Shown piece by piece: positions 16,048 through 43,808 of a stretch of 57,837 nucleotides of DNA. Position 1 is the first letter of the stretch, and the number at the start of each line of letters is the position of its first letter. Made by a program: the position numbers and the translations under genes. Below the pieces are notes generated by a model. That model had not been told where the DNA came from and made no database searches. It saw nothing but the letters and a program-made list of their open reading frames with translations. Source of the DNA: an uncultured Fibrobacter sp. (GTDB taxonomy: Bacteria; Fibrobacterota; Fibrobacteria; Fibrobacterales; Fibrobacteraceae); assembly GCF_947305105.1 (NCBI RefSeq), contig NZ_CAMZCS010000020.1, forward strand, positions 1 through 57,837. Direction: 5' to 3'.

Positions 16048-16647
16048 CTAAAAATTTGGGTAGCCGTCCTTGAGGGACTCGTCGTAATGGGCGCGTTCGC
16101 CGCCGATGAATTTCGGGCGCGTGCGCGCTGCAATCAGGATTGCCTTGCCGATATGCGTTAGCTGCATGTGAACAGGTACCGCGACTTCTTTCAGGTGCAT
16201 GCCGATGAGTGTACCGCCGATATCTAATCCGGCGTCTGCCTTGATATGTTCAATGGCGACAGGTTGTTCAAAAGCGCTATAGCAGGCGGTGGCGAACGAG
16301 CCGCCGGCCTTGGGTTGCGGTACCACGTTCACGATTTCGGCGTTCGGTACGGCCTTGTGCTCGACGATGATGGCTCGGTTCAAGTGCTCGCAGCACTGCG
16401 CCGCGATGTAGATGCCGAGCGGCTTGAAAACGGACTGCAAACCTTCGAAAATGGCCTTGCCGACTTCGGGCACGGAGTGGCTGCCGATGTCGTTTCCGAG
16501 CGTGGAACTCGTGCTGCAACCGATGACTACGATATTGCCCGCCGTAAGGCGCGCCTTTTCCACAAGTTCCTTAGCGGCGTTCATCGCGTCGTTACGAATC
16601 TGTTCGACAACGTTCTTGTCGTCTATTTCGTATGTAATGCCTGCCAA
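16048..16647 (-). CDS. YwlG/TIGR01440-family protein (UPF0340)
   Basis: A 199-residue protein. Signatures are VVIGCSTSSTLGNDIGSHSV, GIYIAAQCCEHLNRAIIVE, VNVVPQPKAGGSFATACYSAF and DAGLDIGGTLIGMHLK, which I recognise as the TIGR01440/YwlG family of unknown function. The chosen start is the TTG at 16647, since the conserved N-terminus begins MAGITYEIDD; there is no nearby ATG. The bases just upstream are the tandem repeat at 16652-16692, so the leader is repeat-derived. It lies on the far side of the transposon from guaA and was probably its direct downstream neighbour before the insertion. Confidence 0.85.
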   Translation of the reverse strand: MAGITYEIDDKNVVEQIRNDAMNAAKELVEKARLTAGNIVVIGCSTSSTLGNDIGSHSVPEVGKAIFEGLQSVFKPLGIYIAAQCCEHLNRAIIVEHKAVPNAEIVNVVPQPKAGGSFATACYSAFEQPVAIEHIKADAGLDIGGTLIGMHLKEVAVPVHMQLTHIGKAILIAARTRPKFIGGERAHYDESLKDGYPNF

Positions 16648-16651
16648 CTTT

Positions 16652-16703
16652 CTACTGCCTACCGTCTACTGTCTACTGTCTACTGTCTACTGCGGCGAAG
16701 CCG
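16652..16703. repeat. Tandem 'CTACTGT' repeat and half of a split hairpin
   Basis: Five to six copies of a seven-base word (CTACTGT, with variants) run from about 16652 to 16692. GCGGCGAAGCCG follows. Before the transposon inserted, this joined the base after AGCCG at 25295 to give GCGGC-GAA-GCCGC, a perfect hairpin immediately beyond guaA. Confidence 0.75.
16699..16703. repeat. Target-site duplication AGCCG, left copy
   Basis: AGCCG directly precedes the TGT end of the element and is repeated exactly at 25290-25294. Five bases is the length made by Tn7-family transposases. Confidence 0.9.
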
Positions 16704-17019
16704 TGTACCTTTGTAACCTTCGTTCCAACATGTGTAATCGTTCGTTCCAACCAGGTTTGCACCCTTCGTTTGCAACTTTGTTTTCAACGTCATCCCGAAC
16801 CATCGTTGCCAGCTCGTTGCAAAAAGAAGGCCCCTTTGGTTCTAACAATCGCTTCAAACCCTGTTGTAATCTGGGCTAGAGCCTGGTTGCAAACCTTGTT
16901 TCAAACCCTGTTTCAAACCCGTTGCAAACAAAAAAAACACCGAGATTGACTCTCGGTGTTCGCAAACTTGGTTTGGAACCGTGGTTCACACAAAGTGGAA
17001 CGGGCGGTGCAAAGTTACA
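16704..17019. repeat. 316-bp terminal direct repeat, left copy
   Basis: Identical base for base, by eye, to 24974-25289 (offset 8270). It starts TGTACCTTTGTAAC and ends GTTACA. Read inward from its other end it gives TGTAACTTTGCACC, so each copy alone has imperfect inverted TGT/ACA termini. Inside is an array of 11-12-base units of the type GTTTCAAACCCT (for example starting at 16886, 16898, 16910 and 16921) and an intrinsic terminator. The units are plausible TnsB-binding sites. Confidence 0.92.
16928..16960 (-). terminator. Intrinsic terminator in left repeat copy
   Basis: Ten-pair stem AACACCGAGA/TCTCGGTGTT (16936-16945 with 16951-16960). On the minus strand it is followed by eight T. It stops minus-strand transcription of the transposon genes before it reaches the YwlG-family gene. 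Confidence 0.85.
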
Positions 17020-17197
17020 TAGAGAGTTTTCTTTCGAAGCTCAATATACCTTTTTGACGAAACTTAAGCAAGTAGAAAACTCACAAAAATATTGGTTTAT
17101 GATGTAAAATTGAGAAAACCCTTCCCAACAGGGACATCCACATGGATATTGCCGCTGGGGTAGATTTTGGTTGATTCAACGCTTTAGAACGACTGCC

Positions 17198-17803
17198 TTA
17201 TCCACACGTGGACCGTCCTTGATGATTCGTACGGCAGTGTTTTTTTTTGCGATGGGATTTTTTTTGTTGGTCTTCAAACCGTTTTCTGGTCTCGTCCTCA
17301 ATCAACTGCATCATCTCTGGGAATAGTTTTTCTGCATATATTTCGGCGATGTGTTCGAGTTTGATTACTTCTTCTTTAGCAGCATCATCCATCTCCAAAT
17401 TCCAATAATTCTCTGCGTAGCAGCAATATTCATAAGTCCATGAATGAACGATTCCATCACGGATTGCATCTTCAAGGGTGGATTCATTTACGTCTTTAAC
17501 ACCTTCAATCATATCCTTGACTGTTTCAACAAAAATTCGTGGGTTATCGCATTGTTCGAGCGTTGGGTAGCCTGCACAATTTAGGATTGCATTTCTTTTG
17601 GTTCCCGTTGCTGAAATTGGTCCGAATTGTGCTTCGCATAGTACGTCGCTTATGAGTCCATCGCAAGCATCTTCGTCGGATAGTATTTTGATGATTTTTT
17701 TCTTCACGTCATTGACAACGGCTATTTTCTGGAGGTCGATATCGTGGCTAAATTCTTCTGAATAGGTTTCGGCGATGTGTTCTATTTTTTCTTGGTTTTT
17801 CAT
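17198..17803 (-). CDS. Transposon-borne hypothetical protein with a probable C-terminal frameshift
   Basis: A 201-residue acidic protein with a basic tail. No family recognised. A repeated IEHIAE(T/I)Y phrase occurs near residues 8-15 and again near 148-155, suggesting two related helical segments. The last 16 residues (KKKHCRTNHQ...) look unnatural. In another frame, after the A8 run (17262-17269) and through the A9 run (about 17239-17247), the DNA reads NTAVRIIKDGPRVDKAVVLK and stops at 17176. So the original protein probably ended there, 22 bp further on. An AAGGA ribosome site precedes the ATG. Cargo of the Tn7-like element. Confidence 0.55.
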   Translation of the reverse strand: MKNQEKIEHIAETYSEEFSHDIDLQKIAVVNDVKKKIIKILSDEDACDGLISDVLCEAQFGPISATGTKRNAILNCAGYPTLEQCDNPRIFVETVKDMIEGVKDVNESTLEDAIRDGIVHSWTYEYCCYAENYWNLEMDDAAKEEVIKLEHIAEIYAEKLFPEMMQLIEDETRKRFEDQQKKSHRKKKHCRTNHQGRSTCG

Positions 17804-17836
17804 AGTTTTTTCCTTTTGTTTTTTGGTTCACTAGGT

Positions 17837-18196
17837 TTATTCTGGTTGGTGAATAGACCCAACCTTTTTAATTTTCGTTGGCCTTGAGAGTTTGGCGTCT
17901 AATTCGATAGGCTTATAGACATCCGTTCGATATCCTTGATATCCTTTTAAGTAGGTGTTCACTCTGGCTTCGAATTGTAAGATGTCACCCTGTTTAAGAT
18001 TGGCCTGGCAAAATCCTTTTGTTAGATTAAACCATAGATGGTCTGTAATTTTATCGCCATCGGTATCACGTATGTCGGTTAACAACACTGTTGTTTCCGT
18101 TCGCCCTTTCCAGCCACGTTTCATGCCGAAACGTTCAAAGACACCTTTAAAAGTGAGGCGTTCTTCAGAGCCAATGTTCATTAGTTCAGTTCTCAT
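17837..18196 (-). CDS. OB-fold-like small protein on the transposon
   Basis: A 119-residue protein. TTVLLTDIRDTDGDKITDHLWFN, LTKGF, LKQGDILQFEARVNTYLKGY and YRTDVYKPIEL give a strand pattern like an OB-fold nucleic-acid-binding module. Similar proteins occur, as I recall, in conjugative elements and phages of Firmicutes. An AAGGA ribosome site lies eight bases before the ATG. It is 33 bp upstream of the 201-residue protein gene, so the two are co-transcribed. A single-strand-binding role beside a primase-like protein would make sense but is inference. Confidence 0.6.
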   Translation of the reverse strand: MRTELMNIGSEERLTFKGVFERFGMKRGWKGRTETTVLLTDIRDTDGDKITDHLWFNLTKGFCQANLKQGDILQFEARVNTYLKGYQGYRTDVYKPIELDAKLSRPTKIKKVGSIHQPE

Positions 18197-18303
18197 ATTT
18201 TATATCCTTTTTTGTGTGTTTGGGTAAGAGTCCCCTATAGGGCTATCTTGTGGACAGTCCTTGGTTGAGCCCTTGTGGGGCGCTTTTTGATTGATGTACA
18301 GTC

Positions 18304-18450
18304 CTAGGTCACAAAGACCTCGTGTGGAATAAGGCCATCATAGGCCATTCCTTCCATACGGGAGAAGATGTTGCGGAAGCGTTTTTCAAGATTGTTCTTT
18401 GCGGTTTCTCCTTTAGTTGATAACAGTTTTCTGGTCAAGTTCCTGAGCAT
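18304..18450 (-). CDS. Possible 48-residue peptide overlapping the preceding gene
   Basis: An open frame from the ATG at 18450 to the TAG at 18304, overlapping the end of the 160-residue gene by 38 bp. It reads NNLEKRFRNIFSRMEGMAY and then DGLIPHEVFVT, which looks like genuine protein (amphipathic helix, coherent codons), but I see no ribosome site at the start. It could be a small gene or the remains of a longer C-terminus of the upstream protein in a shifted frame. Confidence 0.3.
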   Translation of the reverse strand: MLRNLTRKLLSTKGETAKNNLEKRFRNIFSRMEGMAYDGLIPHEVFVT

Positions 18451-18895
18451 ATTTGATGGCTTCATATTCACTGAGAGATACACCCCATGTTACAAGTATT
18501 TCCTCCATAGGTATACGGAGCCATGACTGTAAAGAGTCTACGAGCGCACGGTGTTTCCATGCGTCATGTATGTCACACCATGTATTGTCTTTCTGCATGT
18601 AACGGTATGCATGGCGGAAGAAACCGCACGTTTCGCATTCTGGACGCTTCCATTCCTTGATTGTCTCGAATGCTCCGTAAAGAATTGATTCAAGGGAATC
18701 GCCTTTGTCAATTAAATCAGGGTCATTCTCGGAAAGTGCTTCGATGTTTACATGTTCACGCCAGTACTTGTCATGTTCAGCATCATAGAAGAGGACGCCA
18801 AGAACCCTGATTTCCTTTACCGCCGAGAAAAAGTTATCCATCGTTAGACTTCTTGCTGCTTCCTCTATTTCTTTTTCTGTAATTTTTCTTTTCAT
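18413..18895 (-). CDS. Transposon-borne hypothetical protein with CxxC/CxxH motifs
   Basis: A 160-residue, mainly helical, acidic protein of no recognised family. CETCGFFRHAYRY and WCDIHDAWKHR place two Cys pairs and His residues close together (about residues 93-117), which may bind a metal. It starts at an ATG with AAGGAG seven bases upstream. The promoter region about 100 bp upstream contains the 13-bp palindrome shared with the ribbon-helix-helix gene, so it is probably controlled by that regulator. Confidence 0.6.
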   Translation of the reverse strand: MKRKITEKEIEEAARSLTMDNFFSAVKEIRVLGVLFYDAEHDKYWREHVNIEALSENDPDLIDKGDSLESILYGAFETIKEWKRPECETCGFFRHAYRYMQKDNTWCDIHDAWKHRALVDSLQSWLRIPMEEILVTWGVSLSEYEAIKYAQELDQKTVIN

Positions 18896-18966
18896 GGTTT
18901 GCTCCTTTTTAATTTAAGTCTCACGGTTCTCATGTTCAGATTCCCATTTTTCGTACTTTTTTTGAT

Positions 18967-19009
18967 TGGTTATTCTATAATTGTTGTTGACATGCATTGT
19001 CAATGACAA
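18967..19009 (-). promoter_or_regulatory. Promoter with overlapping 13-bp operator palindrome
   Basis: On the minus strand TTGACA (-35) is followed 18 bases later by TATAGA (-10). The -35 lies inside the palindrome TTGTCATTGACAA (18997-19009). The same 13 bases occur at 19543-19555 in front of the regulator gene. It probably drives the 160-residue protein and the genes after it. Confidence 0.55.
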
Positions 19010-19086
19010 ATTTTTGCCTGAATAAAGACGACTTGGGCTGGCCTTGTCGTCTATTTCAATCGACTATAGGTTTTAACAATTAAATG

Positions 19087-19503
19087 CTAACATAACTCAA
19101 TATTGAACCCCTGAGATTTGATTTCATTCACGGTTTCGAGAACGAGTCCATACTCTTCACGAGCATTACCTACGAAACCTTTTTTTATGCCGATATCTAA
19201 GGCGATGCTGGTATTTTTCGTTTTACCTAGTCCATGGATAATAAAATCGTATTTATGGTGGTCTTTCCGTTCGTTCATTCCCAGACGCCGAACAAATAGT
19301 TGATGCTTGTCAACAATATCCTTGATTGTGCTGTATTGAGAGGTTAGAACATCGTCCACGTCCATTTGGGAGAATTGCTCTTGAATCCACTCAGACAAGC
19401 CCCTGGTCATCTGGATGTATTCTAGCTGTGGACGTAGTTCAGGCGGCAAACTGAAGGAACAGGTGATAGCAATGCGTCTTCTTGGTTTAGTAGTCTTTCC
19501 CAT
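19087..19503 (-). CDS. Ribbon-helix-helix-type regulator on the transposon
   Basis: A 138-residue protein. The N-terminus, with a basic stretch (KTTKPRRRIAITCSF) and then SLPPELRPQLEYI and GLSEWIQEQF, has the strand-helix-helix pattern of a CopG/Arc-like DNA-binding domain (about residues 5-45). The C-terminal two thirds (VRRLGMNERKDHHKYDF...) are unrecognised. The start at 19503 is preferred to an in-frame ATG at 19539 because GAGG lies nine bases upstream and the -10 region overlaps the longer form. A 13-bp palindrome at 19543-19555 upstream suggests autoregulation. Confidence 0.55.
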   Translation of the reverse strand: MGKTTKPRRRIAITCSFSLPPELRPQLEYIQMTRGLSEWIQEQFSQMDVDDVLTSQYSTIKDIVDKHQLFVRRLGMNERKDHHKYDFIIHGLGKTKNTSIALDIGIKKGFVGNAREEYGLVLETVNEIKSQGFNIELC

Positions 19504-19542
19504 TGTATGTAACCTCAAGCGATAACTATAATATAACAAATT

Positions 19543-19555
19543 TTGTCAATGACAA
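19543..19555. promoter_or_regulatory. Operator palindrome upstream of the RHH regulator
   Basis: TTGTCAATGACAA, symmetric around one base, is identical to 18997-19009. It sits 40 bp before the regulator's start codon in an AT-rich promoter-like region (TATATTATAG on the minus strand). Confidence 0.5.
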
Positions 19556-19595
19556 CAAGTGGTTTTGACAAAAAAGTTGTTTTTTTTTCAAAATG

Positions 19596-19620
19596 CCCCC
19601 AAATGACATCCATGAGGGGG
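19596..19620. repeat. GC-rich inverted repeat downstream of the primase-like gene
   Basis: CCCCC...GGGGG arms around a 15-base loop that contains CATCCATGA. A related hairpin containing CTTCCATGA flanks the other side of the primase-like gene (21632-21664). The T9 run lies on the other side, at 19580-19588. Confidence 0.4.
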
Positions 19621-19741
19621 TTATTACCCAAAGCGAGTGGTTTTTCGTACGTATGGCGGAAATACAGTAGTTAAAACCTGTTTTGGGTCTCTGGAGGGGT
19701 CGTTTTCCCTCCATGTCGCCTTAGCTAGTGTGTGTAGCTTC

Positions 19742-21595
19742 TTACGCCTTGCTAGGCGCCTTTTGCGGGGGTTTCATCAGCAAAGGGACCTTACACATGT
19801 TTCGCCTTGTTCTGGGCCTATGGGCTTGTTTTTGGGCGATTCCGGCCTTCCTCCATAAACCGTTGAAAACGGCTTTTGAAATTCTCCATTTTGCATTTGC
19901 AGCCTTGAAACATTCTTCTTTGGTAGAAGAATCGGAACTGCATAGCTGCTCAAATTCGCTGATGTTTATATCCCAATTCGGGACGATTCGTTTGTCCATT
20001 CTCATCAGTGAGGTAGATAGCGCCTTGGTCATTTCTTCCGTTGTGGCGACAAAGAGCCAATGATAAACTTTTTGGGCTATCCAGGTAAAGTCCATTGGGT
20101 TTCGCTCATCAGCTCCAGAAAGCTCCGTTGTCCTTTGGACAATCCAGTTGACTTGCCTGATGATTCCGTCATAGGATAGCGTAGAATCTGTGTCTAAATC
20201 AATGTCGAAATAGGTTGCCAATGCACGGGCGTTGTAGCACAGAGCTATGATTTGAAGGTCAACTCTCTTGTGCCTTGCCCCAACCTTGATTGGTCTTTGC
20301 AAGTTTTGATTCAGGTAAATGTTGCCCCAGTGGGCTATTGGGTAACTTGCTTCCCGAGGCAAATTCCTTTTATCTACGATTTCCATAAGAATCCTTGATG
20401 AGGACATCAGAATAAAAGGGGCGTCAGAATACTTTTCCCGTTTACTAAACCATGTTTTGAAGTCAGCTGTATCTTGCTGCTGTTTAATATGTGTGAGGGG
20501 GGAGGGAGGAGGGAGTTCGGCATCCACAGGGGGATTATAGGGAGGATTTACTTGCGGGTTCGCTTTGGGGTTGTCGTAGTTTTCTTCTAGGGAAATTTCT
20601 GCTATATCTTGCTGCTGTTTAATATGTGTGAGGGGGGGCTTGGGGAAGGAGAGGAGAGGCTCGACGGTTACGCATTCAGCTAATCCCTTGAAAATGGAGG
20701 GGAAATCGTTCAATGTGTACACAAGGCCGATTTCTCTTTCTGCCTGGTATGCGAGGTGAAAGCGTTCGGGGTATTTGTCTAGAAGGGCTGAGTTAAGGAC
20801 CGAAAACGTTTTCTGCGTCACGTAGGCGGCCTGGGGGTCCCAGGCGGTTTCAAGGGCGTATTTATCATCGTATGTTAGGGGGAGACCCTCCTCCAGTTTC
20901 TTTCTTGCTTCTTTGGCTGTGTTTATAACCTCGTGGCCAAATATGTAGCCTGTCTCTTCGGTGACTTTTTGTCTCAAGGTTTCGTTGTCGTAGTTGAAAG
21001 GGGCTGTTTTTAGGAATACATGGAACTTAGTCTTGCCGTTGATGTCTTCCGCCACAAATCGCCCGATGTTGTCGCCAAATTCTTCGATATACTCCTCTTC
21101 ATAATAAAAAACAGTTTCATTAGAGGATGATTCAATGACGAAACATGTATTCGCATTGTCATAATCGCATTTCTTGAGTTCAGCGCCCGTTTGAATGCCC
21201 AAATCATCGAAATCTACAAGAATAAAGTTTGATGGGTGGTAGTTTTCACCAGTTTCTTCATTCCTATACCACCATCTGTTCCTCATCCAGGTCAGACCGT
21301 AATCAGAAAGAAGTAACATAAGCTCAAAGAATCGATAAACGTTCCCCTTGAAGTGGACCTTGTAAATCTTTGAAGAACCGTTCTTCTTTAACTTAGGAGT
21401 ATGCGAAATGAATCTGTTCACGTACTTGTGGAACTTGCCATCCTTGTCAGTGTAGCCCTTCTGGAACTTTGTGAACTTTTTTGTGGGGCAAGCATTGAAA
21501 ACGATGAGTTCTTCCTCGAAAACGGGGATAGGTGGAGGAGGTGGGGGGCAGTAGTTGAGGTCAAGGTGCTGGGTCATGTTTTGGTTCATATTCAT
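19742..21595 (-). CDS. Large transposon protein with primase-polymerase-like motifs (unknown function)
   Basis: A 617-residue protein just after tnsC, where tnsD/tniQ normally sits. The N-terminal half has FILVDFDDLG (about residue 130) and KTKFHVFLKTAPF (about 200), then DPQAAYV (about 270). Together these resemble the DxD, sxH and third acidic motifs of archaeo-eukaryotic primase-like replication proteins. A Pro/Asn-rich linker (about 330-385) is bounded by two copies of LTHIKQQQD encoded by a 32-bp direct repeat. The C-terminal half is helical and unrecognised. I start it at the ATG at 21595, eight bases after GGAAGGA. No TniQ zinc-finger features. The primase reading is inference and needs a profile search. 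Confidence 0.6.
   Translation of the reverse strand: MNMNQNMTQHLDLNYCPPPPPPIPVFEEELIVFNACPTKKFTKFQKGYTDKDGKFHKYVNRFISHTPKLKKNGSSKIYKVHFKGNVYRFFELMLLLSDYGLTWMRNRWWYRNEETGENYHPSNFILVDFDDLGIQTGAELKKCDYDNANTCFVIESSSNETVFYYEEEYIEEFGDNIGRFVAEDINGKTKFHVFLKTAPFNYDNETLRQKVTEETGYIFGHEVINTAKEARKKLEEGLPLTYDDKYALETAWDPQAAYVTQKTFSVLNSALLDKYPERFHLAYQAEREIGLVYTLNDFPSIFKGLAECVTVEPLLSFPKPPLTHIKQQQDIAEISLEENYDNPKANPQVNPPYNPPVDAELPPPSPLTHIKQQQDTADFKTWFSKREKYSDAPFILMSSSRILMEIVDKRNLPREASYPIAHWGNIYLNQNLQRPIKVGARHKRVDLQIIALCYNARALATYFDIDLDTDSTLSYDGIIRQVNWIVQRTTELSGADERNPMDFTWIAQKVYHWLFVATTEEMTKALSTSLMRMDKRIVPNWDINISEFEQLCSSDSSTKEECFKAANAKWRISKAVFNGLWRKAGIAQKQAHRPRTRRNMCKVPLLMKPPQKAPSKA
20471..20637. repeat. 32-bp direct repeat inside the primase-like gene
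   Basis: 20471-20502 and 20606-20637 are identical over 32 bases (starting ATCTTGCTGCTG). They encode the two LTHIKQQQD phrases that bracket the Pro-rich linker. Recombination between them would delete 135 bp in frame. Confidence 0.85.
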
Positions 21596-21631
21596 AGTAA
21601 ACATCCTTCCGAAAAGCATTCGGAGTTATAT

Positions 21632-21675
21632 CCCCCCATGGGAGTTCCCGACTTCCATGAGGGGTCTTGTTTTTC
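21632..21675 (+). terminator. GC-rich hairpin upstream of the primase-like gene, terminator-like on the plus strand
   Basis: CCCCCATGG pairs with CCATGAGGGG (one mismatch) around a short loop, followed by TCTTGTTTTT. No plus-strand gene precedes it, so its job may be other than termination, for example as a leader structure for the minus-strand gene starting at 21595. Confidence 0.4.
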
Positions 21676-21819
21676 CCAATAAAAGTACGCTTTTTGAAGG
21701 CTACTCTAACATTTTTTTTTTAGAAGCCCTGTTTTGATGCAAAAAAGTTGCCGTAAAGGCTCTTAAACCCCTGTTTTCGACCTCCAAAAGAAGAAAAAGG
21801 GAAGGTCTGGCCTATCCTT

Positions 21820-22626
21820 TCATTTCGACGGGAACGGCTGCGATTGCTTGCGAATTGCAGAGTCTGTCAAGGGAGGCGCCTGGGTAAAGAAGTCTAGGCA
21901 TTCGTTTGTTCCTACGAGCAGAACAGATATGCAGCTTGTATTTATCAGTTGTAAAATCATCTGATAAAGCAATTTTCCTGACTTGCTTTCCACAATAAAT
22001 TGTATTTCATCTATGATAAGAGTCCCCACATACAAATGGCAAATTTGGCAAACCATCCCAAGTATTTGCTGCGAGTTCATCTTGCTTTTTTCGCTACGTT
22101 CGTAGTAGTGTGTTTCCAGGATTTCGTCGATGCTAATGAGAATTTGGCATAGTAGGCCTTTATAGCTACAGTCGAATGGGCAAGATACCATCAGGACGGG
22201 GATTATCCTGTGAATGTTGTCGTCACTTTCGATGACTGGTCCAAGTAATTTGGTGGCGTATTGAATGGCCGAAGTTTTCCCAATTCCGCTGGAGCCAATG
22301 ACCGTGCTGCTTGTGGCGCCTGTAATAACTCCCTGAAATTCACCACCGTGCGCCCACTTGTACGTGGCGTTTCTTTGCTTGATGGAATCGATGGACCCTT
22401 TTTGCTGGAGCGACATTGAGACCATCATATAGAGTTTCTGATAGATTTCAAAGGTCATTGAAGAGGGTATAAAGACCTTATAGATGTCTGTAAGCTTTAG
22501 CAGGCGTTCGCTTGCGGACATGCTTTTTATTGCAGCTCGGTCATAATGGGGGAGCCTGGTAAGGGCTAGACTTAAATCATCCCCAAGCAAAAGCTTTGGT
22601 AGCTTTGAGCTAATGTTAGTTGTCAT
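21820..22626 (-). CDS. tnsC: TnsC/TniB-like AAA+ ATPase
   Basis: A 268-residue transposition regulator that links target choice to the transposase. Walker A GSSGIGKTSA is at about residue 115, Walker B TLIIDEIQ at about 205, and the sensor-like VLLVGTNE at about 236. Its start overlaps the tnsB end by 11 bp. The C-terminus stops soon after the sensor region (LTDSAIRKQSQPFPSK), shorter than Tn7 TnsC and nearer TniB size. I cannot tell natural shortness from truncation. The family is clear; the gene symbol is by analogy. Confidence 0.82.
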   Translation of the reverse strand: MTTNISSKLPKLLLGDDLSLALTRLPHYDRAAIKSMSASERLLKLTDIYKVFIPSSMTFEIYQKLYMMVSMSLQQKGSIDSIKQRNATYKWAHGGEFQGVITGATSSTVIGSSGIGKTSAIQYATKLLGPVIESDDNIHRIIPVLMVSCPFDCSYKGLLCQILISIDEILETHYYERSEKSKMNSQQILGMVCQICHLYVGTLIIDEIQFIVESKSGKLLYQMILQLINTSCISVLLVGTNECLDFFTQAPPLTDSAIRKQSQPFPSK

Positions 22627-24439
22627 TCTTTGCCTCCGTGATGATGTCTTTATGGGTTTCGTATTTCTCGATTCGTCGGTTTTCCCCGATGGCTTTGAGA
22701 CATTTTTTAGGCTTTATGGCGCCCTGTTCGACGATTGTCTGGATGTGGGAGATTAGGTTGATTCGGCCTTGCATGGATTCTTCGTAAAAATGTTTGACAT
22801 GCTCCTTTTGTGCTGTTTTTGCTTGGTTCACGCTGTCTAGCTTGGCCCCGTCAAATTGTGTGTCGATAAGTTCAAACCGTCTGAAATTCTCATCGACTAG
22901 GTACACATAGGTGACATTATCGGGATTAAAAGCGACATTGACTTTGTTACCCTTGAGGAAACGTTCTACAAATCCATCTGAACCGTAACGGAGGCCGTTC
23001 ACAATTAAACCTTTTCGGGTGAAATGCCCCGTAGTTCTAGGCAACAGGAGCGCTGTGATGGTCTCGGGTGATGCAAAGATGAGATTCCCTAATCCATGTT
23101 TCTTTTGAAATCCCCAAATGCTGGCAGAGTACGGAGGCGTTTTCTCATCAAGCATTTGGGCTGTATAGGGGAAATTTTTGAGGACTCTTTTGGTGTTATG
23201 GAAAATGATTGCATGGATGATGATGGTCTCAAAATCATGCAATGAGATACAGGCGTCTTTCCTGTAATCGTGACCACCACGTTTTTGAAAATCTGATTCG
23301 ATGACGCCTTTTCCCTTCAAATAGGGCTTATAGGCATTCTGAATCAAGTCAAAGAATTTTTCGACACGCCCCTTGAGTTCTGGACGAAATGGTGGAAGGT
23401 TTATGATTGTTACCCCCAGTTCTGCCAGCTGTTCAAAATTAAAGCTTGCATATTCTGAGCCCCTATCTGTTACCATGATGGAGGGCAATTCCTTGCAGGG
23501 CCAGTCTTCGTCCTTTATCTCGATTCCGAAAGCTTTACAGAGTTCAGTCTTGTCTGCGATGATATTCAAAATCAATTCCCGAACACTGTACATTCCTCCC
23601 TCCCAACCAAGATAATAGCCGCAACAAAGCCCGCTGTAGCCGTCAATGCAGGCTGTGAGAATCGGCCTTCCTATGACAATCCCTTGGCTATTGCATAAGT
23701 AAATGTCGCATATAGTGGAATCCAGCATTCCCGTTCCGATACACGGAGCAAATTCCTGAACGCCACTTCCAAGCAAAGGTCTATGGTTCATTTGATAGTC
23801 TTTTAGACCGCCTCTGCTGATGAGCTCCGTTTGGATTTTTCGGTTTCTATAAAAGAAGTAGCGAAATTGGTGAATCGAAGGCCTGTCGGCCTTTATTTGA
23901 CCGTCGGGTTCACAGTATCGTTCCTTAATTAGGGAATAATACGTATCAGTTAGACTTTTACCATGTCTGGTGTAGAAAAACTTGTTTAATGCCCAGCGGA
24001 AGTTCTTTTGGTCTGGGGTAAGTTCTTTTTGTTGTGCCTTTTTTGGGGCTAGGATTGCCTTGTTCTGGAATGCGAGGTATCTGTAGAGCCATTTCTTGAC
24101 TCCACGGATACTGTAACCGTTAAGTTTGGCTATCTGTCGAAGCATGGAACAGCGTTCCTGAGAGTCGCCTATTATTGGGATTATTCCGCTTATGAGTGTA
24201 TATCTTTTGTTTGTTTCTGCCAGTTCCTTTTCATTTAAGTCTGTTCTTAGCTCAATTTTTGCTCTGGCTTGGAGTTCGTCTTCAGTTATTTGTTTGGCGC
24301 CTTCGAATTGCTCTTTTAGAATGAACATGGGATTGCATTGACGAATACAGTTGATAACCAATAGACCGTTGTTATCATCGTTTTCTAGGATACGGTAAAT
24401 TGTGCCGTTTTTATCCCATAGAGAATTTGTGCTATACAT
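22616..24439 (-). CDS. tnsB: TnsB/TniA-like DDE transposase
   Basis: A 607-residue Mu/Tn7-type transposase that cuts and joins element ends. The N-terminal part is helical DNA-binding sequence (about 60-190). The rve catalytic core shows Asp in GMLDSTICD (about 238), Asp in TDRGSEYASF (about 321) and Glu in KGRVEKFFD (about 356). A Mu-transposase C-terminal barrel follows (GLRYGSDGFVERF, FNPDNVTYVYLVD). The start has a perfect AGGAG eight bases upstream and overlaps the tnsA stop by eight bases. All catalytic residues are present, so the transposase is probably active. Confidence 0.92.
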   Translation of the reverse strand: MYSTNSLWDKNGTIYRILENDDNNGLLVINCIRQCNPMFILKEQFEGAKQITEDELQARAKIELRTDLNEKELAETNKRYTLISGIIPIIGDSQERCSMLRQIAKLNGYSIRGVKKWLYRYLAFQNKAILAPKKAQQKELTPDQKNFRWALNKFFYTRHGKSLTDTYYSLIKERYCEPDGQIKADRPSIHQFRYFFYRNRKIQTELISRGGLKDYQMNHRPLLGSGVQEFAPCIGTGMLDSTICDIYLCNSQGIVIGRPILTACIDGYSGLCCGYYLGWEGGMYSVRELILNIIADKTELCKAFGIEIKDEDWPCKELPSIMVTDRGSEYASFNFEQLAELGVTIINLPPFRPELKGRVEKFFDLIQNAYKPYLKGKGVIESDFQKRGGHDYRKDACISLHDFETIIIHAIIFHNTKRVLKNFPYTAQMLDEKTPPYSASIWGFQKKHGLGNLIFASPETITALLLPRTTGHFTRKGLIVNGLRYGSDGFVERFLKGNKVNVAFNPDNVTYVYLVDENFRRFELIDTQFDGAKLDSVNQAKTAQKEHVKHFYEESMQGRINLISHIQTIVEQGAIKPKKCLKAIGENRRIEKYETHKDIITEAKNDN

Positions 24440-24788
24440 TAGGTTTCTCCTGGTTGGTTACGATGCCCCAGTTGGAGATACCCCTTTTATTCCAAAATTC
24501 CCTAGATGCATCGAGCAAGGCAATGGTCATTGGTTTAGCCAGGAATTTTCTCTCGACACATTCCCTGACAAGGAATGAACCATCTTTGCATTTGCATAAG
24601 AAATCGCTGGTGTAGGCGCCTACACTAAGTCCATCAAGGGGGACGTTGCACTGGATGGTTTCTATTGAGTCCGTCTTTTGCAAGATGTCCAGGTAGACTG
24701 ATTGGAGCTTGCTATATAGGCGGCACACAGAAGCTGCCTTAGTCACACTCCGTTTCTCACATTTACATTTGGGGTCTTTGCGCATCAT
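24432..24788 (-). CDS. tnsA: TnsA-like endonuclease (N-terminal domain only)
   Basis: A 118-residue protein. SKLQSVYLDILQKTDSIETI, YTSDFLCKCKDG, FLVRECVERK and REFWNKRGISNWGIVTNQE follow the layout of the TnsA nuclease core. The catalytic Asp is in SDFL, but the first Glu position is Gln (SKLQ) and the usual EVK is ECV. The RECVxRK form recurs, as I recall, in TnsA-like proteins of Firmicutes elements. The start at 24788 is supported by AAGGAA nine bases upstream. A longer frame reaching 25127 would run into the terminal repeat and is rejected. The TnsA C-terminal domain that contacts TnsC is absent. Confidence 0.78.
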   Translation of the reverse strand: MMRKDPKCKCEKRSVTKAASVCRLYSKLQSVYLDILQKTDSIETIQCNVPLDGLSVGAYTSDFLCKCKDGSFLVRECVERKFLAKPMTIALLDASREFWNKRGISNWGIVTNQEKPNV

Positions 24789-24812
24789 AGAGAGATTTTC
24801 CTTGTTTCCCAG

Positions 24813-24951
24813 TTTCCCGAAAAAGGCATGGTTTTTCCCGATTTCGGGAAAATTTTGCGGAATTCGGGCCGAAATTCGGGAAACCGATAAGTGGTCTTTG
24901 CAGAAAACCCTTGAAATTTGCTCAAAAAAGCCATTCCCGAAATCCCGAAAA
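24813..24951. promoter_or_regulatory. Cluster of TTCCCGAAA iterons upstream of tnsA
   Basis: About seven copies of TTCCCGAAA or its complement lie in 139 bp: 24813, 24834, 24844, 24861 (partial), 24874, 24933 and 24942. Two form a perfect 8-bp-arm inverted repeat at 24834-24851 (TTTCCCGA-TT-TCGGGAAA). They lie between the tnsA ribosome site and the right-hand repeat copy. They look like protein-binding sites that control the tns operon or act as replication iterons. Confidence 0.7.
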
Positions 24952-24973
24952 TGGGGTGAGCTGATTTCCTCTA

Positions 24974-25289
24974 TGTACCTTTGTAACCTTCGTTCCAACA
25001 TGTGTAATCGTTCGTTCCAACCAGGTTTGCACCCTTCGTTTGCAACTTTGTTTTCAACGTCATCCCGAACCATCGTTGCCAGCTCGTTGCAAAAAGAAGG
25101 CCCCTTTGGTTCTAACAATCGCTTCAAACCCTGTTGTAATCTGGGCTAGAGCCTGGTTGCAAACCTTGTTTCAAACCCTGTTTCAAACCCGTTGCAAACA
25201 AAAAAAACACCGAGATTGACTCTCGGTGTTCGCAAACTTGGTTTGGAACCGTGGTTCACACAAAGTGGAACGGGCGGTGCAAAGTTACA
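24974..25289. repeat. 316-bp terminal direct repeat, right copy
   Basis: Exact copy of 16704-17019. Its ACA end is separated from the guaA stop codon by the 5-bp duplication plus one base. The bases just inside the two copies are complementary (TAGAG after the left copy, CTCTA before the right copy), extending the inverted symmetry at the inner junctions to TACATAGAG. Confidence 0.92.
25198..25230 (-). terminator. Intrinsic terminator in right repeat copy, now serving guaA
   Basis: Same stem as the left copy (25206-25215 with 25221-25230) followed on the minus strand by eight T. Being 66 bp past the guaA stop, it is the first terminator guaA transcripts meet. Confidence 0.85.
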
Positions 25290-25294
25290 AGCCG
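25290..25294. repeat. Target-site duplication AGCCG, right copy
   Basis: Exact match to 16699-16703, directly after the ACA end of the element. Confidence 0.9.
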
Positions 25295-25295: not shown

Positions 25296-27131
25296 TTATT
25301 CCCACTCGATGGTTCCGGGCGGCTTGTGCGTCACGTCGTACCACAGGCTGCCAGCACCTTCGGCTTCGAACTTGCGCCAGAGACCGGCGAGCAATCCCTG
25401 ATCGATTTCGGCGAAGTTTGCGGTCATGGCTTCGGTGGAGTTCACCGGGCGCATCACGATGCAGGGCTTGTTTGCTGTGCGGAGCGGGACGAGCACGACC
25501 GGCATCTGCCAAATTTTTTCGTACAGGTCGTTGGCCTGCAGGAATTCGGTGCAGATGTTGTCGAACTTGCGGAGCGTATCGAAGTTTTCGCGGGTGGCGA
25601 ACTGTTCCACGAGTTTCGGATCTTCGTCGGCGACGCTGCCAATCTGGTAAATCACGCGGTTGATGGCCTTGAAGCGGTTGGCGAGTTCTGTCGAGAACTT
25701 TTCGCAATCCTTCCAGGAGAGGCCCGGAGTGGTAATGAGGAACGGCTGTGCGTAAGTACGGCCATCGCCCTGCACGCCCACGCTCTTGATGGGGAGCAGG
25801 CGGCCTGCAATGTTGTTCGCCTTCAGGTAGTCGGCGAGGGACTGACCGGCGGTATCCTTCACGTCTTCAAACTTCACCATGTCGCTGGCGAGCACGCCAT
25901 CGCTGCAGAGCAGGCGTACGCCGAGGCCCGGACCCGGGAACGGGTGGCGCCACACGAGGTTGTGCGGGATGCCGAGTTCTTCGCCCAATGCGCGGACTTC
26001 GTCCTTGTACAGGTCGGCGAGCGGTTCGAGCACGAGGCCCTTTTCCATGAGGTCCAAAACTTCTTGAACGCGGTTGTGGTGCGTCTTGATTTTGTCGGCG
26101 TTCTTGGTGCCGCCGCTTTCGATGGTGTCGGGGTAGATGGTGCCTTGCGCCATCATCCACTGGTTCGGATCGAGGTTGAGCTTCGCCATTTCCTCGTCCT
26201 TCACCGTCAGGAATTCCTTGCCGATGATGCCGCGCTTGGTTTCCGGCGCAGTCATGCCCTTGAGCTTCGCGAGGAAGTGCTCGCTTGCGTCACGCACCTT
26301 CAAGTTGTTCATGCCTTCCTTCGTGAGGAAATCCATAATCTTCTGGGATTCGCCGAGGCGCATCATGCCGTTGTCCACGTGCAGGCCGAGGACCTTTTCC
26401 GGTCCGAGTACGCGGTTCAGGAGCACGAATGCCACGGTAGAGTCCACGCCGCCGGAGACGAGCAGGAACACCTTGCGGTCCTTGACCTGGTCCTTGATGC
26501 GCTGCGTGATGAGCGGCAGGTAGCTCTTCATGTTCCAGGTCTTCTTCGCGCCGGTGAAGTCGATGAAGTTTTCGAGCAACTTCATGCCGAACTTGCTGTG
26601 CGTGACTTCGGGGTGGAACTGGATACCGAAAATCTGGCGTTCGGGCTTGTCACTGTCGAAGGCGACGGCCGCGATTTCGCAGTCCTTGGTGCTGGCCACA
26701 ATCTTGTAGCCCTCGGGGAGCTTCGTGACTTGGTCGCCGTGGCTCATCCACATGGGGGAGGCCTTCGGGAGGTCCTTCAAAATCGGGCACTTTTCGTCGC
26801 CCACAATCAGGTCGGCGATGCCGTATTCCTTGACCTTGCCCGGTTCCACGTGACCGCCCAGCTGCTGGGCAATGAGCTGGTGTCCGTAGCAGATGCCGAG
26901 TTTCGGCACCGGGAGGTTCAAAATTTCGGGATTGTATTCCGGGGCGTCCGCGGCGTACACGCTGGAGGGGCCGCCACTGTAAATGATTCCCTTCACGCCT
27001 TCCAGTTCGCTGACGGGAGCGGCGGGGGAGTGGATTTCGGTAAACACGCCCAGGCGGCGCACGCGGTTAGCAATCAGGTGGGCGTACTGCCCGCCAAAGT
27101 CCAAAACTGCAATCGTATCAACGTTCTTCAT
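25296..27131 (-). CDS. guaA: GMP synthase (glutamine-hydrolysing), long form
   Basis: Converts XMP to GMP with ATP and glutamine. Residues 1-205 are a class I glutamine amidotransferase (catalytic Cys in GICYGHQL, His and Glu in FHPEVTHS). The ATP-pyrophosphatase has LVSGGVDSTVAF (about 225), and the C-terminus is the hallmark KPPGTIEWE. At 611 residues it is about 90 longer than the common bacterial enzyme. The extra sequence is in the dimerisation region, between VGVQGDGRTYAQPF and EKIWQMPVVLVPLR, as in the eukaryote-like long form. Its stop codon is one base from the transposon's target duplication, making this the candidate attachment gene. Confidence 0.96.
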   Translation of the reverse strand: MKNVDTIAVLDFGGQYAHLIANRVRRLGVFTEIHSPAAPVSELEGVKGIIYSGGPSSVYAADAPEYNPEILNLPVPKLGICYGHQLIAQQLGGHVEPGKVKEYGIADLIVGDEKCPILKDLPKASPMWMSHGDQVTKLPEGYKIVASTKDCEIAAVAFDSDKPERQIFGIQFHPEVTHSKFGMKLLENFIDFTGAKKTWNMKSYLPLITQRIKDQVKDRKVFLLVSGGVDSTVAFVLLNRVLGPEKVLGLHVDNGMMRLGESQKIMDFLTKEGMNNLKVRDASEHFLAKLKGMTAPETKRGIIGKEFLTVKDEEMAKLNLDPNQWMMAQGTIYPDTIESGGTKNADKIKTHHNRVQEVLDLMEKGLVLEPLADLYKDEVRALGEELGIPHNLVWRHPFPGPGLGVRLLCSDGVLASDMVKFEDVKDTAGQSLADYLKANNIAGRLLPIKSVGVQGDGRTYAQPFLITTPGLSWKDCEKFSTELANRFKAINRVIYQIGSVADEDPKLVEQFATRENFDTLRKFDNICTEFLQANDLYEKIWQMPVVLVPLRTANKPCIVMRPVNSTEAMTANFAEIDQGLLAGLWRKFEAEGAGSLWYDVTHKPPGTIEWE

Positions 27132-36031: not shown

Positions 36032-39000
36032 CTACTTCACCACAATCATCGGGCTCGTTTCGCTCAGCAGGTAGTTCCACTCGGCGCGGATTTTCTCGTA
36101 TTCGGCGGGGTCCGCGTACAGGGCGAATGTCGTCCAGCGGATGGAGGTGCCGGCGCTTGTCCCGCTGGTGGATTCCTTACCTTTTTCGTAGCTCACGTAG
36201 TCCGGCGTTTTCGGGTACGGCTTGGGCGGTGTAACCGTCACGGTGTGGCCGCTCGGGGCGGTGACCTTGAGCGTGTAGCTGAACTGCGTCTCGTGCGGCA
36301 TGCGGATGGGGTGGTGGCGCTTGGAAACCTTCGGAATCTTGAACAGGCTGCGTTCCCACACGTTCGGGAAGCGGCCCTTGAGCTCGGAACCGCCCTGGCC
36401 GAAGTATCCCTTGGAGGCGTAGGTGTTCACGATGATCAGCGGCTTGTTGAACTCGTTCAAGTTCTCGATTCTTACGTTGCCGATGCTCACGTCGGGGACT
36501 CCGCTCGCGAGGAAGTCCTCGAGCAGGGTTTCCTGTTCCTTGACGTCGTGGCTGAAGAACTTATTGCGGATGGCCGATGCGAACTTGCCCTGCAGCGTGA
36601 CGGAATCGCGGAATTCGCAGGCTCCGTCGGTGCCGATGTGGAGGCGGTGCTCTATGGCAATCTGGTGTTCCTGATTGTCTTCGAGGATAGGCGTCGTCAC
36701 GACCTTGCTGTTGTCATCGTCGATGATTAGCGCGACCTTGCCTTCCATGTCGAGCGGCACGGGGCGGTCGTTGCCCGTCTTGTCGGTCGCGTCGATCCAG
36801 CGCTCGCTAATCTTGTCTTGCTTGGGGATGTAGAGAATCATGTGGTTGAACTGCTGGATGGTCGGCAGCTGTTCGAACCCTTCTTCGGTGAGGTGGATGG
36901 CCACGAGGTGGCTCTTGACCCCGATGGCCTCGAGCATTTCCTTGAGCAACAGGGCCATGTCCTTGCAGTCGCCACGACGCTCCTTGAGCGTCACTTCGGC
37001 GGTCTGCGGGATAAGGCTATGACCGCCGAAGCGGACATCGCGATAGCGGATGTCGTGGCGCACGAAGTTGACAATCGCCTTCACGGCCTCGTCGCCGATA
37101 CGGCTGCCGCGCACCTCGAATGCCTTCTCGCGCACACTCACGGCCTGCTTGAACTGGTGCTTGATGAGGTTCTGGTAATCTTCGCCTACGTTCTTCCATT
37201 CCTGCTTGCCGGTGAGCATGAGGCCCGCGCCAAAGTCGCGGTACACCGGCATGTACATTTCCTTGCGCACGATGACCGGGTTCTCGATGCTCCATTCCAC
37301 GCCGCCCTTGAACGTCTTCTTCTCGAGCGGGCCGTATTCTTCGGTCACGAAGCGGTTCGGGTCGGCATAGATGCGGAAGATGCTCTTGCCCACGGGCACG
37401 TCGCTGCTGCTTACGTAGTCGGTGTAGGGAATCATGCCCTTGTTCTCGATGTTGGTGCGGCTGAACTGCACGTAGATAAAGTCGCCCGGCTCGAGTTCCT
37501 GCAGCGGGAAGTGCGCCGTCTGGCTCTCGTTTCCGCCGCCGATTTCTGTGGCGTAGGTGATGTAGGCCCCGTTCAGGCCGACTTTCTGCTTCAGGTTCCA
37601 GTTGCTGTCGTAGACTTCGAGCGCGTTGATGTAGATGCGGTCAAAACCGGGCAAGAAGTCGAAGGTGAACTCGCGGTAGATGGCCGTGCCGCGCAGGTCG
37701 AGGATTTCCATGAGCATCTCGTCGGTGCGGACCCAGTTGGAACCCTTCTCGGCCTTGAGCGCTTCTTTGTGGTAATGCACGACGGCGGGGAAGTCGCCCT
37801 CGGTTCCGGCCTTCTTCGCGGCGGGAGAGAGCAGACCCTTGATGCTTGCCGTGCGCTCTTCGACTGGGGTGATGGGCTTTTGCAGCGTGCGGTTGTCGGC
37901 CTTGCCGAGGAACGCCTTGGTGGCGCTCAAGAAGCTCTTGGCGTCTTCGTTGTCGGGCTTGAGCGAAAGCGCCTTGGTGAGCGACTTTTCGGCTTCGCGG
38001 TAGTTCCTGCTATAGAAGAGGATCTTGCCCTGGGTTGTCCATGTCTTGTAGTTGTTGCGGTCCTTGGCGATGGTCTCTTCGCTGATGGCGCGGGCTTCCT
38101 CGTAGCGGCCGAGGAACACGAGCGCGTCCATGAGGGTAGAACCGAGGTCCACGCTCATTCCGAATCGTCCGCGTACGCCATAGAGCACGTCGACGGCTTC
38201 GGCGTACTGGTCAAGGCCCATGTAAGTCTTGGCGAGGTAGACGCCCAGGCGGCTGCTGGGCTGCGTGTCGTACAGGCGCTGCACCACGATGAGCGACTGG
38301 TTGCGCTGTCCGAGTCCCCAGAGCGCGTCACTCAGGTTGATGACGTATTCCGGGTTGTTCGGCGTGTAGCGGAGCGCCCCTTCGGCGCATTCGCGGGCGT
38401 GACCGTAGTCGAACAGCGCCTCGTACATTTCGCCCAGAATGGAGAGCAGCTTGCCGTTCTTGCGCACGAGATCCATCTGGCTCGTGAAATAGCTGATGCC
38501 CGGCCCGTAGAGTTCCTTGAGCTGGTACACGAAACCGCAGTTGATGAGGTACAGCGGTTCTTCGGGGTCCATCTTGTTCGCGCGTTCAAAATAGCTGAGC
38601 GCGACGAGCGGCTGGTTTTCCATGAGGCGTAACAGGCCGACCTGGCTCATGATGGCCGCGTTGAACTTCGCCTGCTTCTTGTCGTTGGCGAGGCTCGGCT
38701 TTGCACCGACCTTGAGGCCTTCGACGGCGTTGTCCATGATTTTCTCGTACTTTTTCTTGTTGATGCCCTGCGTCCAGCTGACCACGAGGATGCCGCGGCC
38801 GTCGTCGTAGAAATAGCGGCCCTTGTAGTAGAAGTCGAACTTGTTCACTACGTGTGTGAGCGTGAATTCCTGGGCGTAGCGGTCGCCGACCTTGACTCGG
38901 CGGACATCCATGCTCGGTTCATTCGGGTCGACGCCGAGGCGGGTGAGGAGCACCTTGAACATGTCGGATTGGCTGACTTCGTCGCTGGGGACCATGGCGC

Positions 39001-39856
39001 CGTACACGAACATCGAAATGTCTTCGTCCTTGTTGCTGAGCACCAGATCCGGGTCTTCGTTCTGGCGGGCGACGCCGTTCCAGATGTGCCAGAAGTTGTC
39101 CTTGACTTCCCAGCGGTAGCCCAGAGCGTCGCTGCTGTGTTCGCGGATGGTTTCCGGGGAGAGTTCCGGGCCCGATTCCTGCGTGGTTTCCTTCATCGCG
39201 AAGGAGGCGAAAAATTCCTTCCATTCCTGCTTGAGCGCCCCTGCGGGTAGCGTCACGTCGGTGGCCGAGAGCGTGAGCGTGTAGACCTTGCCGCCGGAGC
39301 CGGTGACAAGCCCGACCGCCTCGTAGGGCGTTTCGTAGCGCTTGCCGGCCACGTCGAAGAATGCGCCCGTGACCCCGAAAGCCTCCTCGGGGTAGGTCTC
39401 GGCGAGAGTCGCCTTCTTGCCGCTGGACTCGAAGCTCTGCATTTCCATCTGGGCGCGATCCATCAGGCGCATCGGTTCGCCCTGGGGGAGCTCCACCTCT
39501 ACGAGCACGGCGCGGCGGCCCGTTTCGGCGTTGTAGAATTCGTAGGGGGCGCCGTCTTCGCCGCCGATGATGGACCAGTTCCCTGCAGGAGGCTCAAAGC
39601 GGTAGCCCGGTGCATCTATGACCCCATTCTTGAGGGAAATGCCTGCGGAACTGTTCCCGCTTGCCGGGAGGGATGAACCGTCAAAGTCGGCTGTGTAGTC
39701 GTCGCTGTAGTAGCTGCTTGCGTTGGAGCTGCCCTGTTGCGCTTCGGGCTCGGTGGTGGGAGCCGGGTTCCCGGCACAAGAAACCAGGACGGAAAAACCG
39801 AGCAGGGAAGTACAAAAACGGACAATGTGACGTGAAATTTTAGACGAATCGCTCAT
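36032..39856 (-). CDS. Large TPR / DUF3857 / transglutaminase-like lipoprotein
   Basis: A 1274-residue protein. A signal peptide with VLVSCAGN makes it a lipoprotein. A Ser/Asn-rich spacer is followed by a unique N-terminal domain (about 60-385), TPR-like helices (about 395-650; LALSYFERANKMDPEEPLY, ALRYTPNNPEYVINLSDAL, SLTKALSLKPDNEDA), and a DUF3857 region (about 690-900). A transglutaminase-like core follows with Cys in RRGDCKDMALL (about 955), His in FNHMILYIP and Asp in WIDATD. The triad looks complete. A cell-envelope protein of unknown target; a peptidase or cross-linking role is possible. Confidence 0.82.
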   Translation of the reverse strand: MSDSSKISRHIVRFCTSLLGFSVLVSCAGNPAPTTEPEAQQGSSNASSYYSDDYTADFDGSSLPASGNSSAGISLKNGVIDAPGYRFEPPAGNWSIIGGEDGAPYEFYNAETGRRAVLVEVELPQGEPMRLMDRAQMEMQSFESSGKKATLAETYPEEAFGVTGAFFDVAGKRYETPYEAVGLVTGSGGKVYTLTLSATDVTLPAGALKQEWKEFFASFAMKETTQESGPELSPETIREHSSDALGYRWEVKDNFWHIWNGVARQNEDPDLVLSNKDEDISMFVYGAMVPSDEVSQSDMFKVLLTRLGVDPNEPSMDVRRVKVGDRYAQEFTLTHVVNKFDFYYKGRYFYDDGRGILVVSWTQGINKKKYEKIMDNAVEGLKVGAKPSLANDKKQAKFNAAIMSQVGLLRLMENQPLVALSYFERANKMDPEEPLYLINCGFVYQLKELYGPGISYFTSQMDLVRKNGKLLSILGEMYEALFDYGHARECAEGALRYTPNNPEYVINLSDALWGLGQRNQSLIVVQRLYDTQPSSRLGVYLAKTYMGLDQYAEAVDVLYGVRGRFGMSVDLGSTLMDALVFLGRYEEARAISEETIAKDRNNYKTWTTQGKILFYSRNYREAEKSLTKALSLKPDNEDAKSFLSATKAFLGKADNRTLQKPITPVEERTASIKGLLSPAAKKAGTEGDFPAVVHYHKEALKAEKGSNWVRTDEMLMEILDLRGTAIYREFTFDFLPGFDRIYINALEVYDSNWNLKQKVGLNGAYITYATEIGGGNESQTAHFPLQELEPGDFIYVQFSRTNIENKGMIPYTDYVSSSDVPVGKSIFRIYADPNRFVTEEYGPLEKKTFKGGVEWSIENPVIVRKEMYMPVYRDFGAGLMLTGKQEWKNVGEDYQNLIKHQFKQAVSVREKAFEVRGSRIGDEAVKAIVNFVRHDIRYRDVRFGGHSLIPQTAEVTLKERRGDCKDMALLLKEMLEAIGVKSHLVAIHLTEEGFEQLPTIQQFNHMILYIPKQDKISERWIDATDKTGNDRPVPLDMEGKVALIIDDDNSKVVTTPILEDNQEHQIAIEHRLHIGTDGACEFRDSVTLQGKFASAIRNKFFSHDVKEQETLLEDFLASGVPDVSIGNVRIENLNEFNKPLIIVNTYASKGYFGQGGSELKGRFPNVWERSLFKIPKVSKRHHPIRMPHETQFSYTLKVTAPSGHTVTVTPPKPYPKTPDYVSYEKGKESTSGTSAGTSIRWTTFALYADPAEYEKIRAEWNYLLSETSPMIVVK

Positions 39857-39895
39857 AGGGCGAAAAATAAAAAATTAAGGAAGAATGTAACGAAA

Positions 39896-39920
39896 GAGCC
39901 CCCCGTCGGGAGGCTCTTTG
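39896..39920 (-). terminator. Intrinsic terminator between the small gene and the TPR lipoprotein gene
   Basis: AAAGAGCC/GGCTCTTT stem extended by CCCG/CGGG with mismatches around a short loop. The T-tract is the stem's own CTTT. It follows the 50-residue gene at 39927 on the minus strand. Confidence 0.6.
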
Positions 39921-39926
39921 CTATAA

Positions 39927-40079
39927 TCATGCAGATGCAAAATCCTTTGAGGCTTGCGCCCTCAACTTGAGGACCTTTTCTTTGGGTAACTTGGTGATAT
40001 CGGTATACCCTTCTAAAGATACATCTTTTGCAAAGTCCTTGTCAAGCAGTTTCTTTAGCCTGTCTTCATTGCGGTTCAT
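39927..40079 (-). CDS. Small hypothetical protein, 50 residues
   Basis: A short open frame with a good ribosome site (GGGAG seven bases before the ATG) and its own downstream terminator. The peptide is Lys-rich and helical (NEDRLKKLLDKDFAKDV, LPKEKVLKLRAQASKD). No signal peptide and no family recognised. The combination of ribosome site, coding-like sequence and terminator supports a real gene. Confidence 0.6.
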   Translation of the reverse strand: MNRNEDRLKKLLDKDFAKDVSLEGYTDITKLPKEKVLKLRAQASKDFASA

Positions 40080-40246
40080 AACGTTTCTCCCTATTGATAA
40101 TAAATGAGTCTAGATTCTGGCCCCTAATCCTCTATAGACGTTTTTGCCGACTTTTTTTCCGATTTTTTTTTATCTGTTATTTTTTTTACAATGCGGAGGC
40201 GAAGGGAAGATTCTATATTCAATGACGGTTTGGACCGCGGGGTAAA

Positions 40247-41361: not shown

Positions 41362-41377
<16 letters not shown>
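40247..41377 (+). CDS. FISUMP-type lipoprotein with two eroded domains
   Basis: A 376-residue protein with signal peptide and LAACDSGGS lipobox. Two copies of the Fibrobacter major paralogous domain (TIGR02145-like) are visible: TVTIGDQIWMAENLNYA (about residue 147) and TVTIGAYTWMAENLDYE (about 346). The first keeps CPKGWHLPMNAEWG but jumps from DDFGFSATG straight to SFIRCIKD, lacking the usual central part. The second stops after about 20 residues at 41377. The family's normal terminus ([10 protein letters not shown]) is found 8-18 codons later in another frame. Function of the domain unknown; surface lectin-like roles are only guessed. Confidence 0.8.
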
Positions 41378-42587
<1,210 letters not shown>

Positions 42588-42675
42588 TTGATTTCTGCTA
42601 AGCGTTAGTGGCGCGGACGTAACAGCCTCCGGGCAACCTGATTTCCGCGCTTCCGCTTGAAATCTTTTACAAAGA

Positions 42676-42710: not shown

Positions 42711-42788
42711 GGAATAAAAGAAAAAAAATCTCCTTTTTTGATTTTTTTTAATTACGTTTAGTTTGTAAACAAAAAAAAGGAGATTTCT

Positions 42789-43793: not shown

Positions 43794-43808
43794 TTGACGT
43801 AGCTTTCG

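Follow-up and report, generated by a model that had tools for sequence, protein, structure and literature searches.

Element map and insertion site

The window, as the whole 57,837-nt stretch that was analyzed is called here, carries a Tn7-like element between two chromosomal genes, guaA and a DUF436 gene. Features are listed in order of position.

16048-16647, minus strand: DUF436 gene, chromosomal, guaA neighbor at the empty site
16699-16703: TSD CGGCT, far side (empty site in genome G008)
16704-17019, minus strand: 316-bp terminal unit, second copy, oriented as the first copy
17198-17803, minus strand: ORF, 201 aa, identical in genome G027
17837-18196, minus strand: ORF, 119 aa, the OB-like protein of the preliminary description, no family match
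18413-18895, minus strand: ORF, 160 aa, identical in G027
19087-19539, minus strand: ORF, 150 aa, identical in G027
19742-21619, minus strand: archaeo-eukaryotic primase (AEP)-like primase-polymerase gene, 625 aa, directly after tnsC
21820-22626, minus strand: tnsC, truncated (TniB/AAA match; alignment with five relatives)
21875-21881: deletion joint with AGGCGCC microhomology (comparison with G021, G027 and G112)
22616-24439, minus strand: tnsB transposase (Mu-transpos_C)
24432-24788, minus strand: tnsA, nuclease domain only, 118 aa (relatives start here)
24974-25289, minus strand: 316-bp terminal unit, first copy, TGT...ACA with imperfect inverted ends, gene-less, 100% repeat of 16704-17019
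25290-25294: TSD CGGCT, guaA side (from the sequence; empty site TAAGCGGCTTCGCCGC in G008)
25296-27131, minus strand: guaA (GMP synthase), chromosomal (Pfam GATase and GMP synthase C-terminal domain)

The element spans 16704-25289 and is flanked by the TSD CGGCT. Its TGT end lies 6 bp past the guaA stop codon, at which a conserved edge is seen across the genus, and guaA and DUF436 are 54 bp apart in the empty site of G008. The preliminary description had judged the insertion to be specific, and the position of the TGT end, the TSD and the empty site agree with this. TnsB was 46-64% identical to relatives within the genus and 27-31% identical to TnsB of plasmid Tn7-like elements. A short GTAGACAGTAGAC-type repeat was seen at 16641-16692, and occurs at >20 other places in the genome. 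Most of the genomes compared were draft or metagenome assemblies.

The primase-polymerase-like protein

The gene after tnsC had been described as encoding 617 aa. The ORF is real and directly follows tnsC, but it is 625 aa long and the 617-aa start is internal; the phrases VDFDD, KFHVFL and DPQAA, which had suggested a primase, are present in its translation. An identical copy of the protein was found in G027 (a metagenome-assembled Fibrobacter genome), and the closest non-identical relative is in G112 (74% protein identity). Base differences between the window and G112 genes were 64/61/132 at codon positions 1/2/3, and because they concentrate at third positions (132/257), the ORF was taken as a real coding gene.

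Homologues were collected stepwise, from one relative to the next. The G021 homologue is 25% identical to the window protein over the full length, those of G046 and G049 are 36% identical to that of G021, and two further homologues are in IMG/VR phage contigs (for the first of these, identity to the proteins of G046 and G049 is 47-49%). A scan of genome contigs returned the G027 copy alone, and no close relative of the window protein was found in plasmid, phage and viral collections, the phage contigs being reached only via relatives. The AEP-like protein had no usable match in Pfam, NCBIfam, PADLOC or PHROGs. In both phage contigs (L079 and L081) the homologue sits between early and tail genes.

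Three motifs, DFD, KFH and WD, were invariant in a seven-row alignment of homologues down to ~21% identity, and correspond to D136-x-D138, K198-x-H200 and W260-D261 of the window protein. For AEP motif I (hhhDhD), the window protein reads ILVDFD, and the D-x-D, which closes a predicted strand, is invariant in all seven. For motif II (sxH), K-[FY]-H-V-F is invariant, with the His kept and a Lys instead of the small residue, and for motif III (hD), W/Y-D is found with an invariant Asp. The order matches that defined for AEPs (PMC5862659). The second half of the window protein has a helix-turn-helix-like stretch close to the C-terminus.

The AlphaFold model of the window protein had a pLDDT of 38; for a phage homologue it was about 80-90 across most of the N-terminal domain. 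When this domain was compared structurally, every row with >120 aligned residues was an AEP, at Z scores of only 3.3-4.1 (poxvirus D5/E5, Prim-PolC, LigD, Methanocella NHEJ polymerase, S-2L PrimPol, ASFV PrimPol and herpes helicase-primase), and Foldseek with the same model returned nothing below E 0.001. From the invariant motifs of seven homologues and the weak fold matches of the phage homologue, the window protein is likely a primase-polymerase-like member of the AEP superfamily, as had been proposed. Within the gene, two directly repeated 40-bp stretches (95%; 20463-20502 and 20598-20637) both encode PLTHIKQQQD.

A deletion joint in tnsC and the loss of tniQ

The window tnsC stops matching its relatives at residue ~251, leaving an ORF of 268 aa vs. 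408-415 aa. From 21805 the window matches G112 from just past ardC through the AEP gene at 78-85% identity. In G027 the identical AEP segment starts at the same base but is preceded by unrelated DNA. In G021 and G046, both with the element at guaA, tnsA-tnsB-tnsC-tniQ is followed by a tyrosine recombinase gene and cargo, and ardC and the AEP gene come 13-15 kb past tnsC; the order is unchanged in G049, where the distance from tnsC to the AEP gene is about 20 kb. Because tnsC is truncated, the joint carries the AGGCGCC microhomology, the DNA beyond it is post-ardC DNA and relatives keep tniQ, the adjacency of tnsC and the AEP gene appears to be a deletion scar. The internal deletion would have taken the end of tnsC, tniQ, the recombinase, cargo and ardC.

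No TniQ-like gene is present in the window, as had been noted, and the TniQ of a relative found no candidate in the window's genome while matching in five other genomes of the genus. The G021 TniQ matches TniQ (2.8e-19) and the TnsD C-terminus. The elements at guaA (G021, G046) have a full-length TniQ of 442 aa, and those with a short TniQ (G030, G049) are located elsewhere, a distribution that fits TniQ as the selector of guaA.

These comparisons bear on two proposals of the preliminary description, namely that the primase-like protein occupies the tnsD/tniQ position and that targeting may be done by an unrelated protein. The first does not hold as an architecture, since the adjacency is a joint in a truncated tnsC, and the second is not supported, given the TnsD-like TniQ of the guaA relatives, the window having lost tniQ by deletion. 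A target selector role for the AEP-like protein in place of TniQ would account for a genome with no TniQ of this family and for the tnsC-AEP order. It is nonetheless very improbable, given the truncation at the joint, the presence of both TniQ and AEP in relatives at guaA, the location of short-TniQ elements away from guaA, and the AEP gene of G112, where tns genes are absent. On comparison with its relatives, the window copy is a defective Tn7-like member which lost TniQ by deletion, and is probably not autonomous for targeted insertion. An odd gene order can thus be the scar of a deletion, not a new targeting system.

Distribution and context of the AEP gene

An AEP profile matched 6/391 genomes, all within the genus. 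As to linkage with tnsABC, suggested at the outset as a check, this tnsC occurs in six genomes, four of which carry the AEP gene (Fisher P = 1.4e-4, over 80 genomes and with relatedness ignored); the gene lies 13-20 kb from tnsC in the relatives. The other two, G018 and G030, have this tnsC and no AEP of this family. The gene recurs at the far end of elements, near ardC. Directly downstream of it, iteron-like repeats with a 37-91 bp spacing pattern were found in G046 (L060:14844-15071) and G049 (L061:8019-8191), and are possible candidate replication origins; none were found beside the window AEP gene. In G112 (L062, L077, L089, L090), ardC and the AEP gene share a tRNA-flanked island with restriction genes and two tyrosine recombinases, and tns genes are absent, so that the module is shared between element types.

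A serious rival, if an unlikely one, is that the AEP-like gene is cargo, e.g., for defense against incoming DNA or phage, and does not serve element replication. The elements are rich in defense-type cargo, type I restriction-modification genes among it, an AEP is absent from two elements of the family, and there is a precedent in the primase-polymerase of the Thermus element ICETh2, a protein that restricts the uptake of DNA and is not needed for the element to replicate (PMC7693054). Against this, the AEP gene recurs near ardC at the far end and not amid the changing cargo, it has also been found on phage contigs and on an island with an integrase, G046 and G049 have iteron-like repeats next to it, and PADLOC has no match for the protein. 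The same recurrence, the iteron-like repeats in two elements, the phage and integrase-island occurrences and the direct-repeat structure described below make a replication function of the element's own more plausible; it is plausible but unproven.

Identical direct units at both ends

The window element is bounded by two 316-bp units which are 100% identical, in direct orientation and gene-less; no transposase gene is inside the unit. Both units run from TGT to ACA, their ends being imperfect inverted repeats, so the outer ends of the element are TGT and ACA and each unit itself has both ends. Identical direct units were also found in G027 (TSD GGAGC; two copies on separate contigs), G021 (302 bp, TSD GCGGA), G046 (with Ns, TSD GGTTT) and G030 (342 bp, TSD TACAA; assembly in about 20 contigs), and a 99-bp repeat, cut by the contig start, in G049. 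In five elements the 5-bp TSD is outside the two units only and never inside. On the inner side, the unit is preceded by CTCTA and followed by TAGAG (TGGAG in G030). Solo units were found in G045 (near-complete, about 9 contigs), where the unit is next to guaA with its own TSD TTGGT, and in G001, without a clean TSD. A further unit copy is near a contig end in G048 (L102:5800-6137), close to DUF436. In G046, a restriction-modification island (C41, about 37980-46360; L070/L060/L071) lies between the right unit and DUF436, outside the unit-bounded element.

Within elements, 0 mismatches were counted in 1,474 bp of unit sequence, and between the five elements units are 59-94% identical. The identity within elements and the divergence between them mean that one unit was copied from its partner, either during each insertion or later. 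The structure is that of a cointegrate (pseudo-compound, LTR-like), in which the backbone of the donor is enclosed by two copies of the transposon and the TSD is found only on the outside. No description of an LTR-like, cointegrate-shaped Tn7 family was found in the literature searched, of which coverage was partial.

Two other origins were considered. Tandem insertion beside a resident solo unit was rejected: it should leave a separate right end just inside the right copy, which was not seen, and the copies are always identical. An assembly artifact is unlikely, as the outer TSDs match empty sites and G030 has the same structure.

Direct repeats might also arise with no cointegrate, either by cut-and-paste of the whole composite with gene conversion or by a circle recombining into a resident solo unit, an unlikely alternative. 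The outer ends and TSD alone would fit cut-and-paste of the whole composite as well, solo units at guaA are possible recombination targets, and the elements of G000 and G027 are in part 99-100% identical, yet their units differ by 6%. Identity of the two units in 5/5 elements, despite the divergence between elements, argues against it; moreover, recombination into a resident unit creates no new TSD, and recombination of differing units should give hybrid, unequal copies.

TnsA and recombinases

A TnsA that lacks the catalytic lysine, together with a resolvase-type recombinase, fits the cointegrate reading. The window tnsA matched the Pfam TnsA N-domain at 5e-5, below the curated cut-off, and a longer ORF of 231 aa extends into the unit. 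The position of the catalytic Lys (K132 of Tn7 TnsA) aligns to Val, in an alignment to 1f1z/1t0f that is short (E about 0.6). A VRECV motif is common to all six TnsAs, and a nearby conserved Arg/Lys might be an alternative catalytic residue. We infer from these alignments that TnsA of the family is inactive or altered. All relatives whose tns genes are intact encode either a tyrosine recombinase or a serine-recombinase-like protein; in G018 and G030 it is called a serine recombinase from its sequence only. In a Tn7-like system, a TnsA active-site mutant gave >95% cointegrates (PMC8188705), and loss of tnsA with gain of a resolvase has been taken as a sign of replicative transposition (PMC8649781).

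Proposed mechanism

The ardC-AEP segment would be a mobile-element backbone carried by the guaA-targeting Tn7-like family of the genus. The gene-less unit (about 300 bp) would be carried on a circle, X; a TnsD-like TniQ would pick the site just past guaA, and TnsB would join the 3' ends of the unit to it. With an altered TnsA there would be no 5' cleavage, and replication would copy the unit to give TSD-unit-X-unit-TSD. The two units could then recombine, through RecA or through the tyrosine or serine recombinase that the element encodes, which would free circle X carrying one unit while a solo unit stays behind. On the circle, DNA synthesis would be primed or initiated by the AEP. Searches of the collections with TnsB and AEP gave no circular form of the element.

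Taken jointly, an AEP on the mobile backbone of a guaA-targeting Tn7-like family, a tnsC adjacency made by deletion and cointegrate-type integration are given a probability of roughly 0.55. A more tentative extension, which we hold to be possible at somewhat less than even odds, is that a Tn7-like lineage became an integrative plasmid: the circle would carry the tns genes and an AEP replicon, the unit would be its portable attachment site, and the integrated form would be a reversible, stable cointegrate sited by TniQ. If the cointegrate reading is true, Tn7-type targeting is joined to a plasmid-like life cycle, LTR-like terminal repeats arise via DNA replication, the family is a natural counterpart of the laboratory TnsA active-site mutant, and a primase-polymerase has a testable role in a transposon.

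Comparison with known systems

Tn7-like transposons share with this family the TnsA, TnsB and TnsC homologues (TnsC truncated in the window), a TniQ with a TnsD-type C-terminus in the relatives, TGT...ACA ends, a 5-bp TSD and insertion just past a conserved gene. Here, in contrast, the whole element is between direct repeats, each a two-ended gene-less unit, the catalytic Lys position of TnsA is changed, an AEP gene is carried, and TniQ is lost in the window copy. Replicative transposition with a serine or tyrosine recombinase is likewise predicted for Tn5053/Tn402-type and tnsA-less Tn7-like elements; those resolve to simple insertions and have their transposition genes inside the transposon, whereas here the genes are between two units and the cointegrate shape persists.

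Pseudo-compound transposons of the IS26/IS1216 type (e.g., Tn7086, PMC13055272) have direct repeats at both ends as well, and their translocatable units resemble the predicted one-repeat circle, with a solo repeat after excision. The repeat described here differs in having no transposase gene, with Tn7-type machinery in the center and a 5-bp TSD.

The AEPs of bacterial integrated elements (PrimPol-PV1 and related families, PMC5862659) share AEP catalytic motifs with the window protein and occur on plasmids and prophages as well as on integrated elements. Integration there relies on integrases, and that paper uses neither the word Tn7 nor the word transposon; the window protein, unlike them, was unmatched by the family libraries used. 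One AEP-bearing integrated element in the same study is at the 3' end of a GMP synthase gene (PMC5862659).
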